This document shows, piece by piece, positions 32,678 to 38,343 of a DNA stretch of 64,000 nucleotides; position 1 is the stretch's first letter; every line of letters begins with the position of its first letter. Below the pieces are notes generated by a model. It worked only from the letters and a program-made list of their open reading frames with translations, searched no databases and had not been told where the DNA came from. This DNA comes from Phyllobacterium endophyticum (GTDB taxonomy: Bacteria > Pseudomonadota > Alphaproteobacteria > Rhizobiales > Rhizobiaceae). Location of the stretch: contig NZ_PGGN01000006.1 in assembly GCF_003010935.1 (NCBI RefSeq), positions 1 to 64,000 of the forward strand, in the 5' to 3' direction. A program made the translations under genes and the position numbers.

Positions 32678-32889
32678 AGTGAAGTACGTAACAGTTACAG
32701 GTGCACAGCGCATGCGCGGCGACCCCATCCCGCTCTCGTTTTCTATAAGCCTCGACCTCATTGACCGCCACTTGCTGTGCCGCACGCATGAGGTGAATCG
32801 AGCGGTCGGCCAACCCCGTGGATGTTGATAATTAAAGTCTTGACGGGCCGCCGGGGAGACCGGCGTTTGTAACTGTTACGTACTTCACT
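32678..32889. repeat. 22-bp inverted repeat, possible paired operator
   Basis: Arms at 32678-32699 and 32868-32889 are exact reverse complements over 22 nt, 168 nt apart. Each holds an interrupted palindrome, GTAACAGTTAC, extended by TACGTACTTCACT. Two sites with inner dyad symmetry between divergent genes (DUF992 leftward, sulfatase rightward) look like operators of a dimeric regulator such as TetR type. No regulator gene is adjacent. Confidence 0.6.
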
Positions 32890-33115: not shown

Positions 33116-34786
33116 ATGACCGGGAGAATGCTGAAGTTCCGTCTTGGCGCATTGGTCGCCGGGACGGTGTTGTGCGGTGCGCTCGCACCCGCCGAAGCGC
33201 AGGACGCGCAAAAAAAGCCCAACATCCTGTTCATCGTCTCCGATGACACGGGGTATGGTGATCTTGGACCTTATGGCGGCGGCGAAGGACGCGGCATGCC
33301 GACACCAAGCATCGACAAACTTGCAGACGAGGGCATGACGTTCTTCTCGTTTTATGCCCAGCCAAGTTGCACGCCCGGCCGTGCCGCCATGCAGACCGGC
33401 CGCATTCCGAACCGCAGCGGCATGACCACAGTGGCCTTCCAGGGCCAGGGCGGAGGCCTGCCGGCGGCGGAATGGACGCTCGCGTCGGTGCTGAAGCGCG
33501 GGGGCTACCACACCTACTTCACTGGCAAGTGGCATCTCGGTGAAGCCGACTATGCACTTCCGATTGCCCAAGGCTATGACGAGATGAAATATACGGGCCT
33601 TTATCATCTCAATGCCTATACCTACGCCGATCCGACCTGGTTCCCTGACATGCCTACGGATCTCAGGGAGATGTTCCAGAAAGTGACCAAGGGCTCGCTG
33701 TCCGGCAAGGCCGGAGGTCCGGCAACAGAGGACTTCAAGATCAACGGCCAATATGTCGATACCCCGACGATCGATGGCAAGGAAGGCGTGGTCGGTATTC
33801 CGTTCTTCGATGGCTATGTCGAGAAAGCAGCGATTGAATTCCTTGACGCGGCGTCGCAAAAGCCGGACGAGCCCTTCTTCATCAACGTCAATTTCATGAA
33901 GGTTCACCAGCCGAACCTGCCGGCACCCGAATTCCAGCACAAGTCCCTGTCGAAAAGCAAATATGCGGATTCGGTAGTGGAACTTGACACGCGTATCGGG
34001 CGCATCATGGACAAGCTGCGCGAAACCGGCCTCGACCGGAATACTCTGGTTTTCTACACGACGGACAATGGCGCTTGGCAGGATGTCTATCCTGATGCCG
34101 GTTACACGCCCTTCCGCGGTACCAAGGGCACCTTGCGCGAAGGCGGCAACCGCGTTCCCGCAATTGCCGTATGGCCCGGCAAGATCAAGCCCGATACGAA
34201 GAATCATGACGTTGTCGGCGGCCTCGATCTCATGGCAACATTCGCCTCCGTCGCCGGTGTTCCGCTGCCTGACAAGGATCGCGAGGACAAACCCATCATC
34301 TTCGACAGCTATGATATGTCGCCGGTCCTGCTTGGTACGGGCAAATCCGAGCGTAAATCCTGGTTCTACTTTACCGAGGACGAACTCTCGCCAGGCGCCA
34401 TTCGCTTCAACAACTACAAGTTCGCGTTCAATATCCGCGGCGACGACGGAGCGTCGACCGGTGGTCTGGCCGTGGACTCCAATCTTGGCTGGAAGGGTGC
34501 GGAGAAATACGTCGCCACGGTACCGCAGGTGTTCGACCTGTGGCAGGACCCGCAGGAGCGCTATGACATCTTCATGAACAACTTCACCGAGCGGACCTGG
34601 ATGGGCGTCGTCATGGGTGAAGAGCTGAAGAAGATCATGAAGACCTATGTCGATTATCCGCCACGGAAAATGCAGAGTGTCGGCTACACGGGACCAATCA
34701 CGCTTTCGAACTACGAGAAGTTCCAGTGGGTGCGGGACTCGCTCGCGAAAGAGGGTGTCACCCTCACCTTGCCCACCGGCAATTGA
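33116..34786 (+). CDS. Secreted arylsulfatase, Cys-type
   Basis: 556 aa with a signal peptide (LGALVAGTVLCGALAPAEAQ). Type I sulfatase: metal-binding D43-D44 in FIVSDDTGYGDLG, and the modification site C85-T-P-G-R (PSCTPGRAAMQTGR), where Cys is oxidised to formylglycine. The FTGKWHLGE and TTDNGAWQD motifs complete the site. It should remove sulfate esters or act on phosphonates in the periplasm. No formylglycine-generating enzyme or anSME is in the window. ATG 33116 has GAGGAG upstream. First of three genes for exported proteins on this strand. Confidence 0.94.
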   Translation: MTGRMLKFRLGALVAGTVLCGALAPAEAQDAQKKPNILFIVSDDTGYGDLGPYGGGEGRGMPTPSIDKLADEGMTFFSFYAQPSCTPGRAAMQTGRIPNRSGMTTVAFQGQGGGLPAAEWTLASVLKRGGYHTYFTGKWHLGEADYALPIAQGYDEMKYTGLYHLNAYTYADPTWFPDMPTDLREMFQKVTKGSLSGKAGGPATEDFKINGQYVDTPTIDGKEGVVGIPFFDGYVEKAAIEFLDAASQKPDEPFFINVNFMKVHQPNLPAPEFQHKSLSKSKYADSVVELDTRIGRIMDKLRETGLDRNTLVFYTTDNGAWQDVYPDAGYTPFRGTKGTLREGGNRVPAIAVWPGKIKPDTKNHDVVGGLDLMATFASVAGVPLPDKDREDKPIIFDSYDMSPVLLGTGKSERKSWFYFTEDELSPGAIRFNNYKFAFNIRGDDGASTGGLAVDSNLGWKGAEKYVATVPQVFDLWQDPQERYDIFMNNFTERTWMGVVMGEELKKIMKTYVDYPPRKMQSVGYTGPITLSNYEKFQWVRDSLAKEGVTLTLPTGN

Positions 34787-34795
34787 CGACACAAA

Positions 34796-34821
34796 CGGCC
34801 CCCGGTTTTGACCGGGGGCCG
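34796..34821 (+). terminator. Strong hairpin after the sulfatase, no T-run
   Basis: An 11-bp perfect stem (34796-34806 with 34811-34821), loop TTTG, lies 10 bp past the sulfatase stop. The next bases are ATCAACTTCT, not a U-tract. It may end most transcription, or protect the 3' end of the sulfatase message while letting some read-through into the next gene. Confidence 0.55.
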
Positions 34822-34856
34822 ATCAACTTCTGCGCGGCTATTAGAGGGCTTCCATC

Positions 34857-35855
34857 ATGTTCACGACATATCAACTTGCCCGCACCCTCGCGCTGGGCAT
34901 CGCGACCACGCTTCTTTTCGTCGTCCATGCGTGGGCGCAAAACGATCCGCTTCCGTCATGGAATGACACGGCCCCGAAAGCCGCCATCGTCGCCTTCGTC
35001 GAGAAGGTGACCAAGGAGGGCTCGACCGACTTCGTAGCGGAACCAGAACGCATCGCCGTATTCGACAATGACGGCACCTTGTGGACCGAGCATCCGATGT
35101 ACACCCAGCTCGCCTTCGTCCTCGACCGCGTCAAGGCCGAGGCCGCATCTCACCCCGAATGGAAGGATACGCAGCCCTTCAAGGCGGTGCTCGAGAGTGA
35201 TATGAAGACGCTTGCCGCCTTGGGAGAAAAAGGCCTGGTGGAACTCCTCATGACCACCCACTCCGGAATGACGGCCCAGGAATTTCAGACGATAGTGACC
35301 GACTGGATTGCCACCGCGCGTGACCCCCGGTTCAAGAAGCCTTACACCGACCTTGTCTATCAGCCGATGCTCGAACTGCTCGCTTATCTGCGCGCCAATG
35401 GCTTCAAGACCTTCATCGTGTCGGGTGGCGGCATCGAGTTCATGCGGCCGTGGACCGATAAGGTTTACGGAATCCCGCCCGAACAGGTGGTCGGTTCATC
35501 GATCAAAACACAGTTCGAGATGAAGGACGGCGCACCGACCTTGATGCGGCTACCACAAGTCAATTTCATCGATGACAAGGCGGGCAAGCCCGTCGGTATC
35601 AACGAGCACATTGGCCGCCGTCCGATCGCCGCGTTCGGCAATTCCGATGGTGACCTCGAGATGCTGCAATGGACGACTTTGGGCGGCAAGCCGGGCTTCG
35701 GGCTGATCGTTCACCATACGGATGCCGAGCGCGAATATGCCTATGATCGCAACACCGACTTCGGACGCCTCGACAAGGCGCTCGATGCTGCGAGCGTGAA
35801 CCAGTGGACAGTCGTCGACATGAAGGCTGACTGGAAGCAAATCTTTCCCGATTGA
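34857..35855 (+). CDS. Secreted HAD-family hydrolase
   Basis: 332 aa with a signal peptide (about 1-28, ending HAWA). HAD motif I is D70-N-D72-G-T-L in AVFDNDGTLWTE; motif II TFIVSGGGIEFM; motif IV with GNSDGDLEM. It resembles phosphoserine-phosphatase-like HAD enzymes with a large cap (residues about 80-190). Substrate unknown; location suggests it acts with the sulfatase on exported or imported esters. 71 bp after the sulfatase and 40 bp before the cytochrome gene. Confidence 0.9.
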   Translation: MFTTYQLARTLALGIATTLLFVVHAWAQNDPLPSWNDTAPKAAIVAFVEKVTKEGSTDFVAEPERIAVFDNDGTLWTEHPMYTQLAFVLDRVKAEAASHPEWKDTQPFKAVLESDMKTLAALGEKGLVELLMTTHSGMTAQEFQTIVTDWIATARDPRFKKPYTDLVYQPMLELLAYLRANGFKTFIVSGGGIEFMRPWTDKVYGIPPEQVVGSSIKTQFEMKDGAPTLMRLPQVNFIDDKAGKPVGINEHIGRRPIAAFGNSDGDLEMLQWTTLGGKPGFGLIVHHTDAEREYAYDRNTDFGRLDKALDAASVNQWTVVDMKADWKQIFPD

Positions 35856-35895
35856 GCGATTGCTGTCCCGGATACTGCAGGAAGAAAACGCCGCA

Positions 35896-38184
35896 ATGGA
35901 TAGGCTGAATGTTCGCTTGGCGGGAATTCTTTTGGCGAGCTTTTCCCTTTGCGGCCTGCTTGCGTTCCCCTTGCATGCTCGCGCCGAGAATGTCTCGACT
36001 GCTGCTGTCGACCCGCTGATTTCGATCCACGACGGTTTCGTCGACGAGAAGAAGTGCGCCTCCTGCCACGCCAGCGAGGCCGAGGCCTTTGCCAAGTCAA
36101 ATCATGCCAAGGCGATGGCCCTCGCCGGCGACGAGACCGTGCGGGGTAATTTCAATAATGTCGAACTCGAACATGACGGTATCGCTTCGACCTTCTTTCG
36201 CCGCGACAGTCGCTTCTTCGTGCGCACCGAGGGCCCTGATGGCAAGCAGGCAGAGTTCGAGATAAAATACACCTTCGCCTATGAGCCGCTTCAGCAGTAC
36301 CTCGTCGACCTCGGCGGAGGGCGGTTGCAGGCTCTCGACATGGCATGGGACACGAACAAGCGGGAGTGGTTCTGGCTTGGTCAGGGCAAACCGGCCAAGC
36401 CCGGTTCGACCTATCACTGGACGGGCCCGTTCTACCGCTGGAACCGGACCTGCATCGATTGTCATTCGACCGATCCTCAGGCCAATTTCCAGCCGGGGAC
36501 GAAGGAATATCGGTCAACCTATGTGGCGACCAGCATCGGTTGTCAGTCCTGTCATGGCGGCGGCGCAAAACATGTGGAATGGGCCGAGGCAAAGTCGCAG
36601 TCTGCCCTGACGACCATAGGCCCCGATCTGGGACTTGCGAAACCTGATGCGAGCACTTGCTTTGGCTGCCACTCGCGGCGGACCCGGCTTCTCGGCGGTC
36701 AACAGGCCGGACAGCCGTTTCTCGATCAATTCTCGCCGGCGCTGCTCCGGCCGGACCTTTATTTCCCGGACGGCCAGATCCTTGACGAGGTCTTCGAGTA
36801 CGGTTCCTTCCAGCAAAGCAAGATGGCGAAAGCGGGCGTTACCTGTCTCGATTGCCACACGCAGCATGAAGCCAAGCTCAAGGCGCAGGGCAATGCCCTG
36901 TGCACCCAATGCCATACAGAAATCACTCCGGAACGCTTTGCCCACTACAATCCGGCAGGCGATTTCGATACTCCAGCCCATACGCATCATCCGATGGGTT
37001 CACCCGGCGCGCAGTGCACCAGCTGCCACATGCCCGAGCGCACCTACATGAAGGTGGATCCGCGGCGCGACCACTCCCTGACGATCCCTCGGCCCGACCT
37101 GTCGGCGGCTTACGGCACACCCAATGCCTGCACCACCTGCCATGCGGGCAAGCCCGACACCTGGGCGGCCGAAATCATGGACGCGTGGTACGGCACGTCA
37201 TGGCGCGAACGCCCGACCATCGCCCATGCCTTCGCCGGCGCGGCGCAAGACGATCCGGCTTCCATCGAGGCCCTGCGCAAGATCGTGGCGGACCGCGAGC
37301 AGGCTGCCATCATCAAGGGCAGCGCGATCGCGGCCATGAGCCGGATCGGTGGAGCAGACGTCGTCGCGGATATAAAGGCGGCGGCGGAAAATTCCGATCC
37401 GCTCGTCCGGCTCGGAGCTGCGGAAGCCGGGAATAACCTGCCGCCTGAGCGCAGGTCCTATGCGATCGGCAAGCTGCTCGGTGACGAAACACGGGCCGTG
37501 CGCGTAGCAGCGGCTACGGCGCTGGGCAGCACACCGCCGCTGAATTTCCTCGGCGATGAACGAAAAAAATTCGCTGCCGCCATCGAAGATCTTCGCGCCT
37601 ATGTTAAAGCCAATGCCGATGCTGCCGAAGTGCAGAACAACTTCGGATCGTTCCTTTTGGGCCAGCAGCGCCCCGGCGAAGCGGAGACGGCATTCCGTGA
37701 GGCTATCGCGCTTGATCCTGCACTCTCCGGAGCGAGGATTAACCTTGCCGAGCTTTACCGTGCGACCGGCCAAGACGAAAAATCCGAACGCGCATACGCC
37801 GAGGCGATCGCAATCTCGCCCGACCAGGCCGATTTGCGTTACGGCCATGCCTTGTCGCTCGTTCGCCGCAAGGCCATGCCGAGCGCTATTGATGAACTCG
37901 AACGGGCCGTGAGCCTCGACCCCCGCAATTCCCGCTATAGGACAACTCTCGCCATTGCGCTCGATTCGGTCGGGCGCACCGCGGATGCTTTCGCAATGCT
38001 CGACCAACCTCTTCCGGGCGAAACCGACGCAAACCAGCTTGGCACCACAATCCAGTTTGGCCTCAAACTCCGGCGCTATTCGGAGACACTCAAACATGCT
38101 GAGGCGCTTGCCCGCCTGCAGCCCGGTGACCCGCAGATAGCAGATCTTGTAAGACAGCTGCGGGTGATTGTTGAGAAAGAATGA
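35896..38184 (+). CDS. Octaheme c-type cytochrome with HEAT-like and TPR repeats
   Basis: 762 aa from ATG 35896 (the frame opens at a CTG/TTG-type codon at 35860). A signal peptide (MDRLNVRLAGILLASFSLCG to ARA) sends it to the periplasm. Eight CxxCH heme sites are at residues 54-58, 186-190, 216-220, 255-259, 317-321, 336-340, 374-378 and 412-416 (CASCH, CIDCH, CQSCH, CFGCH, CLDCH, CTQCH, CTSCH, CTTCH). Residues about 430-560 are helical HEAT-like repeats, and 570-750 TPR repeats (for example AEVQNNFGSFLLGQQRPGEA). The heme part resembles cytochrome c554/NrfA-like multiheme proteins. Role unknown; an electron carrier that also binds partners is an inference. Third gene of the exported set. 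Confidence 0.88.
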   Translation: MDRLNVRLAGILLASFSLCGLLAFPLHARAENVSTAAVDPLISIHDGFVDEKKCASCHASEAEAFAKSNHAKAMALAGDETVRGNFNNVELEHDGIASTFFRRDSRFFVRTEGPDGKQAEFEIKYTFAYEPLQQYLVDLGGGRLQALDMAWDTNKREWFWLGQGKPAKPGSTYHWTGPFYRWNRTCIDCHSTDPQANFQPGTKEYRSTYVATSIGCQSCHGGGAKHVEWAEAKSQSALTTIGPDLGLAKPDASTCFGCHSRRTRLLGGQQAGQPFLDQFSPALLRPDLYFPDGQILDEVFEYGSFQQSKMAKAGVTCLDCHTQHEAKLKAQGNALCTQCHTEITPERFAHYNPAGDFDTPAHTHHPMGSPGAQCTSCHMPERTYMKVDPRRDHSLTIPRPDLSAAYGTPNACTTCHAGKPDTWAAEIMDAWYGTSWRERPTIAHAFAGAAQDDPASIEALRKIVADREQAAIIKGSAIAAMSRIGGADVVADIKAAAENSDPLVRLGAAEAGNNLPPERRSYAIGKLLGDETRAVRVAAATALGSTPPLNFLGDERKKFAAAIEDLRAYVKANADAAEVQNNFGSFLLGQQRPGEAETAFREAIALDPALSGARINLAELYRATGQDEKSERAYAEAIAISPDQADLRYGHALSLVRRKAMPSAIDELERAVSLDPRNSRYRTTLAIALDSVGRTADAFAMLDQPLPGETDANQLGTTIQFGLKLRRYSETLKHAEALARLQPGDPQIADLVRQLRVIVEKE

Positions 38185-38258: not shown

Positions 38259-38343
38259 TGGTGCCCCCTGCCGGAATCGAACCAGCACTCCTTTCGGAAC
38301 CTGATTTTGAGTCAGGCGCGTCTACCAATTCCGCCAAGGGGGC
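38259..38343 (-). tRNA. tRNA-Leu (CAA)
   Basis: 85 nt including an encoded CCA. Acceptor arms GCCCCCT and AGGGGGC pair fully. The anticodon stem CCTGA/TCAGG holds the loop CTCAAAA, giving anticodon CAA (Leu, UUG codons). Long variable arm (TTCCGAAAGGAGT) and the D-arm GGCGGAATTGGTAGACGCG are those of leucine tRNA. It is the intact member of a duplicated pair. Confidence 0.95.

Follow-up and report, generated by a model that had tools for sequence, protein, structure and literature searches.

An octaheme cytochrome encoded beside an exported sulfatase of Phyllobacterium endophyticum is a candidate sulfatase maturase

We analysed a stretch of 64,000 nucleotides of Phyllobacterium endophyticum DNA (contig NZ_PGGN01000006.1, positions 1 to 64,000; hereafter the window) that carries genes for an exported sulfatase, an exported HAD phosphatase and an exported octaheme c-type cytochrome ending in HEAT and TPR repeats (Table 1). 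The cytochrome is our subject, as a candidate for the enzyme that matures the sulfatase. An initial annotation, made from the sequence alone, had placed the three open reading frames on one strand, with gaps of 70 bp (sulfatase to HAD) and 40 bp (HAD to cytochrome), and had given all three proteins signal peptides; the coordinates are confirmed, with every gene on the + strand, and the signals are visible by eye. Its description of the cytochrome also stands, as the protein has eight CXXCH motifs and matches several TPR models together with Cytochrome_C7 and Cytochrome_C554 of Pfam, while HEAT_2 falls narrowly below its cut-off (27.6 bits, cut-off 27.7). We start the cytochrome at the ATG at 35896; the list of open reading frames instead uses an upstream in-frame TTG at 35860. 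Existing annotation calls members of this family no more than 'tetratricopeptide repeat' or 'cytochrome c3 family' proteins.

The sulfatase matches PF00884 with 163 bits (cut-off 25), and its active-site motif CTPGR, at residues 85-89, fits the pattern (C/S)-X-(P/A)-X-R by which type I sulfatases are defined in PMC6189696. Judged by this motif it is a Cys-type enzyme, whose Cys85 is expected to be converted to formylglycine. The HAD protein scores 54 bits with PF12710 against a cut-off of 27, which assigns it a HAD phosphatase domain.

Table 1. Features of the sulfatase-HAD-cytochrome operon and its upstream region (positions in the window)
Feature	Position	Strand	Basis and remarks
Exported type I sulfatase, Cys-type	33116..34786	+	PF00884; N-terminal hydrophobic signal by eye; motif CTPGRAAMQTG
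Cys85 codon, residue expected to become formylglycine (C-T-P-G-R)	33368..33370	+	Invariant in a 16-row alignment
Strong hairpin in the sulfatase/HAD gap	34796..34821		Terminator-like only for - strand transcripts
Exported HAD phosphatase, class IB-like	34857..35855	+	PF12710 54 bits; TIGR01488 below cut-off
Exported octaheme c-type cytochrome with C-terminal HEAT and TPR; candidate sulfatase maturase	35896..38184	+	Motifs, Pfam, AlphaFold2
Heme domain: eight CXXCH and seven further invariant His	36019..37227	+	Alignment, model, Foldseek
HEAT then TPR superhelix (limits approximate)	37240..38150	+	Pfam, Foldseek; putative role in sulfatase binding
Perfect 22-bp inverted repeat, possible operator	arms 32678-32699 and 32868-32889		Upstream of operon

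According to PMC6189696 and PMC8326336, two enzyme classes make the formylglycine of sulfatases, and a third system, in prokaryotes, has stood as a postulate since 2007 with no enzyme named; both cite Benjdia 2007 for its inference in E. coli. We searched the source genome (5.5 Mb, 99.98% complete) for the formylglycine enzyme FGE (PF03781) and for the radical S-adenosylmethionine (SAM) enzyme anSME (TIGR03942). PF03781 has no match in the whole genome, so the earlier remark that the window lacks a formylglycine enzyme holds genome-wide, and the best match to the anSME model reaches 20 bits against a cut-off of 349, that is, no true anSME. The genome thus encodes an exported Cys-type sulfatase with neither FGE nor a true anSME.

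Co-occurrence was scored in 297 genomes of the window's order (alpha sample; matches to the window sulfatase at E<=1e-20) and in 194 genomes of the order of Pseudomonas fontis, G309 (gamma sample; E<=1e-50); in both, taxa are not independent, sampling is uneven and the statistics do without a species tree. The cytochrome was present in 49 alpha genomes and the window-type sulfatase in 72. Both occur in 44, the cytochrome only in 5, the sulfatase only in 28 and neither in 220 (p about 1e-27), placing the cytochrome in 44/72 sulfatase genomes versus 5/225 others. Likewise, 71/98 gamma genomes with a sulfatase carry the cytochrome versus 3/96 others (p about 3e-26); one gamma genome, G379, was scored cytochrome-positive on a C-terminal match alone, and the gamma results hold without it. 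The window query misses PAS-like sulfatases with the motif CSPTR, and three of the five alpha genomes that seemed to have a cytochrome without a sulfatase (G030, G139 and G143) carry such a gene near the cytochrome; a PAS-like CSPTR sulfatase gene also lies in locus L045 of G212. Some genomes hold several sulfatases for one cytochrome, as is expected of a maturase; G345, for example, has one cytochrome match and nine sulfatase matches. The pairing thus recurs across many bacteria, and the initial annotation's view of it as unusual finds no support.

The two genes are also physically linked. Besides the window, we inspected 50 loci of the alpha sample, drawn from all 48 remaining genomes with the cytochrome, and the best 80 loci among the matches listed in a scan of public genomes, which include Proteobacteria, a Gemmatimonadetes, Balneolales and Bacteroidetes bins. 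The alpha loci have a sulfatase within 8 kb of the cytochrome in 39/50, a HAD gene in 17/50 and FGE in 0/50 cases; the corresponding counts for the best 80 cross-phylum loci are 38/80, 17/80 and 0/80. Of the 48 among these 80 that extend 6 kb or more to either side, 27 have a sulfatase. Clustering of the neighbours in the 80 loci, antisense shadow ORFs excluded, gave the sulfatase as top family (36/80) and HAD as the next (16). The cytochrome is further found in 149/72,556 plasmid records. A Rhizobium leguminosarum plasmid carries the same three-gene operon, as does pSymA of Sinorhizobium meliloti ml28 and ABS7 (by annotation) and 1021 (by our own models); the annotated pSymA and R. leguminosarum copies adjoin a divergent histidine kinase and response regulators. 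S. meliloti is also reported to possess a putative FGE (PMC6189696). Given the co-occurrence and linkage in many genomes, we reject a chance neighbourhood of these genes.

Among the sulfatases at cytochrome loci, the formylglycine position is a Cys in 101/110, the remaining 9 being fragments without this column, and Ser occurs in none. CTAGR, CSPTR and CTPGR are the commonest motifs, and 2/101 read CREGR, which may be misaligned. By a crude home-made rule (signal peptides throughout were scored by this rule or by eye, not by SignalP), 104/127 cytochromes, 82/95 sulfatases at cytochrome loci and 52/60 HADs carry a signal peptide. In loci L056 and L067 the cytochrome is intact, while a window-type sulfatase nearby is split or lacks a part.

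We then compared the distribution of the cytochrome with that of FGE. Strong FGE matches (PF03781 at E<=1e-65) occur in 26/28 alpha sulfatase genomes without the cytochrome versus 14/44 with it (p 1.7e-7). Both exceptions involve broken contigs: G168 (L217) has sulfatase-HAD-FGE with the FGE gene cut by the contig end, and in G267 (L218) a contig begins with the C-terminal part of a cytochrome, the sulfatase lying 4.5 kb away. With both reassigned, FGE is found in 27/27 versus 14/45 (p 1.4e-9), and all 72 alpha sulfatase genomes thus have FGE or a cytochrome gene or piece of one. A loose limit of 1e-40 gives FGE in 19/44 genomes with versus 26/28 without the cytochrome (p 1.5e-5); five alpha genomes, G024, G078, G189, G282 and G286, have borderline PF03781 matches. 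At the level of genera, members with the cytochrome alone are found in 20, with FGE alone in 25 and with both in 7, and several genera hold more than one state. In the gamma sample, FGE occurs in 1/71 sulfatase genomes with the cytochrome versus 11/27 without (p about 1e-6), and anSME exceeds its cut-off in 2/70 genomes tested, both cytochrome-bearing. No PF03781 match was found in 3 of 32 named genomes tested from the 80 cross-phylum loci (Pseudomonas kielensis, a Gemmatimonadetes bin and a Methylococcaceae bin), and in these three the sulfatase lies 118-646 bp from the cytochrome. Rhizobium mongolense USDA 1844, which also has the gene set, gave a weak PF03781 match only.

FGE has an active-site cysteine pair, C...[YH]C. 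Of 24 seed ORFs, 19 show this pair, and the five that do not are variants or ORFs picked antisense or in the wrong frame. Weak PF03781 matches were rejected as FGEs, since among 22 FGE-model matches in 20 stretches only that of G407 has the cysteine pair.

The same alternation is seen inside operons. G220 has the order FGE-sulfatase-HAD, with a sulfatase 82% and a HAD 71% identical to those of the window; G131 has sulfatase (72% identical)-HAD-gap-FGE, and G168 a paralogous sulfatase-HAD-FGE. The FGEs of these three genomes have signal-peptide-like N-termini, which by the crude rule many other FGEs that we fetched do not. A sulfatase lies in the 1.5-kb flanks of 21/30 FGE loci. The initial annotation held that independent occurrence of the three genes in related genomes would speak against their connection, and here the outcome is mixed: the sulfatase-HAD pair is also met apart from the cytochrome, sometimes with FGE beside it instead, and sometimes with neither near (for example L199-L207). 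On the sulfatase tree, label changes number 9, and 13/500 shuffles gave as few, a sign of some clustering of the labels. The HAD gene stands beside the sulfatase under either partner, and is thus more likely to serve substrate use than maturation.

The cytochrome itself belongs to neither known class, as PF03781 is absent from its Pfam matches and TIGR03942 from its NCBIfam matches, and it has no C...[YH]C pair. Eight CXXCH motifs are present in 123/125 aligned family members, the window protein included. The 125 sequences share 15 His columns that are invariant to 97% conserved, eight within CXXCH and seven outside (71, 175, 227, 325, 363, 366 and 394, numbered from base 35893). The Cys columns conserved among them number 16, every one inside CXXCH. 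Multiheme enzymes of the OcwA, MccA and NrfA type have one substrate-binding heme that lacks a sixth ligand from the protein. Here, seven additional His for eight hemes suggest that one heme may have an open or unusual site; the alignment has eight proximal and only seven other invariant His, the model contains no hemes, and a conserved Met or other residues could also ligate. Across 69 sequences, 58/403 columns of the heme domain are invariant, far beyond what heme attachment takes, which suggests that the cytochrome may hold its own catalytic site; His175 or another conserved His may be catalytic.

AlphaFold2 models the mature cytochrome with a mean predicted local distance difference test score (pLDDT) of 91.8 and a predicted template modelling score (pTM) of 0.91, and the heme domain with a mean pLDDT of 89.7. 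The top Foldseek match of the heme domain in the PDB is OcwA (6i5b; TM 0.62-0.63, E about 1e-14, probability 1.00), followed by the octaheme sulfite reductase MccA (4rkm and 4rkn; E 1.6e-3 to 1.2e-2, probability 0.95-0.99), and a sequence profile of the cytochrome likewise finds OcwA and MccA chains, plus c554 and NrfA. The heme-domain fold is thus shared, at 12-18% identity in structural alignments. Unlike OcwA and MccA, the window cytochrome continues after this domain into a HEAT/TPR tail; we know of no sulfatase partner of either protein. With the full-length model, the Foldseek matches shown are TPR superhelices only, among them the peptide-binding TPR domain of OGT, and the superhelix could possibly form a binding surface for unfolded sulfatase.

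We propose, with a probability of about 0.6, that the cytochrome is a dedicated sulfatase maturase of the periplasm, of a hitherto undescribed kind, encoded in one operon with the exported sulfatase and a phosphatase in an accessory role. In its genomic behaviour the cytochrome resembles a maturase, as it follows several exported Cys-type sulfatase subfamilies and stands where FGE stands in relatives. The more specific claim, which we would put at even odds, is that the octaheme cytochrome with its HEAT/TPR tail is a third class of formylglycine-forming enzyme, one that acts in the periplasm, feeds the electrons of Cys oxidation into the respiratory chain and, in Alphaproteobacteria, Gammaproteobacteria and other phyla without FGE, matures exported sulfatases of the Cys type. 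The data show the genes, their tie to Cys-type sulfatases, the way in which the cytochrome alternates with FGE, its predicted fold and its conserved residues; from these we infer maturation and all of its chemistry. The HEAT/TPR superhelix would bind the freshly exported, still unfolded sulfatase, and the cytochrome would oxidise the active-site Cys of C-x-[P/A]-x-R to formylglycine. The most likely chemistry would be a two-electron oxidation of the thiol to a thioaldehyde, which would hydrolyse to the aldehyde and H2S. The reaction site would be the one heme without a conserved distal His, and the electrons would leave via the chain of other hemes to the respiratory chain. The cytochrome would thereby take the place of FGE, which uses copper, and of anSME, which is a radical-SAM enzyme.

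Several observations weigh against this proposal. The source genome has four PF00884 genes: that of the window, L001, which lacks the sulfatase motif, and L003 (G000:C4, CAPAR) and L004 (G000:C6, CMPAR), which encode Cys-type sulfatase-family proteins with no visible signal peptide. These two cytosolic proteins occur with no known maturase in the genome, and a periplasmic cytochrome could not reach them, so the absence of FGE alone is no proof of another maturase. No sulfatase lies within 8 kb in 42/80 cross-phylum loci, and in 18 of these 42 the neighbours, viewed by eye, show no common alternative partner. Two Paraburkholderia plasmids carry sulfatase-HAD with neither cytochrome nor FGE within 6 kb, and one Flammeovirga plasmid carries a sulfatase alone; where neither gene is near, any maturase would have to act from elsewhere in the genome. 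Cytochrome and FGE coexist in 14/44 alpha genomes, and a strong FGE accompanies the cytochrome in 10 of the 32 named cross-phylum genomes. The approximately unbiased (AU) test allows the two FGE-linked members of the window's sulfatase clade to form one clade (p 0.18), so repeated swapping of cytochrome and FGE in this clade is not proven. Finally, 16/27 gamma sulfatase genomes without the cytochrome show neither FGE nor anSME over the cut-off. Many of these assemblies are fragmented and some of their sulfatases have no signal peptide; the best listed PF03781 match, inspected in ten, revealed no cysteine pair, and the other six have weak matches only (E 4.6e-11 to 1.6e-34).

The initial annotation had offered two ideas, that the cytochrome moves electrons for the oxidation of sulfated substrates or for sulfatase maturation. 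It is maturation that the comparisons favour, since the cytochrome is tied to sulfatases, alternates with FGE between genomes and beside orthologous sulfatases, and occurs in a genome without FGE or a true anSME. An alternative, that the cytochrome is a redox or electron-transfer enzyme in the breakdown of the desulfated alcohol, phenol or sugar, and so a pathway partner of the sulfatase, is unlikely, although multiheme cytochromes usually transfer electrons and neighbours such as an outer-membrane-like protein, Phenol_MetA_deg, DUF1254/DUF1214, regulators and HAD would fit a catabolic island. Such a partner would hardly accompany sulfatases as different as the CTPGR, CTAGR and CSPTR subfamilies, or serve many sulfatases with one copy as the cytochrome often does; it would also not be expected to alternate with FGE, which acts on the sulfatase itself, and among the best 80 cross-phylum loci no other neighbour is as recurrent as the sulfatase (36/80, HAD 16).

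Less probable still is that the cytochrome only assists another maturation enzyme, as electron acceptor, cofactor supplier or TPR chaperone. Genes for MoxR, DUF58, VWA and BatD adjoin the cytochrome in a few loci and could encode that machine there, and an aerobic Cys-type system of no named enzyme has been inferred in E. coli (cited in PMC6189696). No other gene, however, recurs as consistently beside the cytochrome, and the 58 invariant heme-domain columns suggest a catalytic site of its own. That the association is ecological, reflecting shared lifestyles, with the FGE anticorrelation due to lineage or to the distribution of cytosolic sulfatases, is improbable: taxa are not independent and sulfatase and cytochrome do coexist with FGE in part of the genomes, but the close linkage spans many lineages and phyla, single genera contain both cytochrome-only and FGE-only members, and FGE takes the corresponding place beside an 82% identical sulfatase.

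Further features accompany the cytochrome genes. The hairpin at 34796 noted earlier exists (a 71-nt stretch, -29.5 kcal/mol, z -3.2), and as a terminator of the operon it was rejected, for the + strand has no T-run and the terminator-like pattern sits on the - strand. Upstream, between a DUF992 gene and the sulfatase, the inverted repeat has 168 bp between its arms and a palindromic core, GTAACTGTTAC; in Phyllobacterium trifolii, locus L114 has a single match to a 14-base stretch of the repeat, which lies upstream of the sulfatase. This repeat is a possible operator of the operon. Immediately downstream of the cytochrome gene lies a tRNA-Leu (caa) at 38259-38343 (-). Elsewhere, MoxR ATPase, DUF58, VWA and BatD genes run with the cytochrome in L057, L058, L060 and L061 (called by Pfam in L058 and L061, by eye in L057 and L060), with HAD or sulfatase in some. 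An exported protein of ~265 residues (APYFWAAGL..., L036:10473-11261) with no Pfam match has, by clustering, similar proteins in 11/80 cross-phylum loci, its genes lying near cytochrome and sulfatase. DUF1254/DUF1214 proteins occur near the cytochrome (L134:4589-6097, with similar genes in 6/80 cross-phylum loci) and also stand beside PAS-like sulfatases.

How does the cytochrome relate to known systems? FGE uses copper, and anSME is a cytosolic Fe-S enzyme. Like the cytochrome, FGE is linked to Cys-type sulfatases and stands beside sulfatase-HAD in the three genomes described above; it differs in its PF03781 domain, its cysteine pair and its copper, in place of which the cytochrome has hemes. 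With anSME, the periplasmic cytochrome shares the proposed task only. The third system of E. coli, as described in PMC6189696 and PMC8326336, would mature Cys-type sulfatases without FGE or known anSME homologues, and we do not claim that it is identical with the cytochrome. Planctomycete-specific cytochrome c (PSCyt) genes lie near sulfatases in Verrucomicrobia (PMC5615132); they too encode c-type cytochrome domains, of families different from those of the window protein, which no PSCyt model matched in the Pfam scan. No proposal of a cytochrome as sulfatase maturase turned up in the open PubMed Central (PMC) literature, a scope that takes in neither preprints nor subscription papers.

The cytochrome is thus a named and tractable candidate for a third maturation system, and its presence in laboratory strains such as Sinorhizobium meliloti 1021 makes the question directly testable. 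If the proposal is true, it would explain how FGE-free bacteria activate their exported sulfatases, give a task to a widespread, barely annotated family of cytochromes, and bring heme chemistry to the methods by which aldehydes are introduced into proteins.

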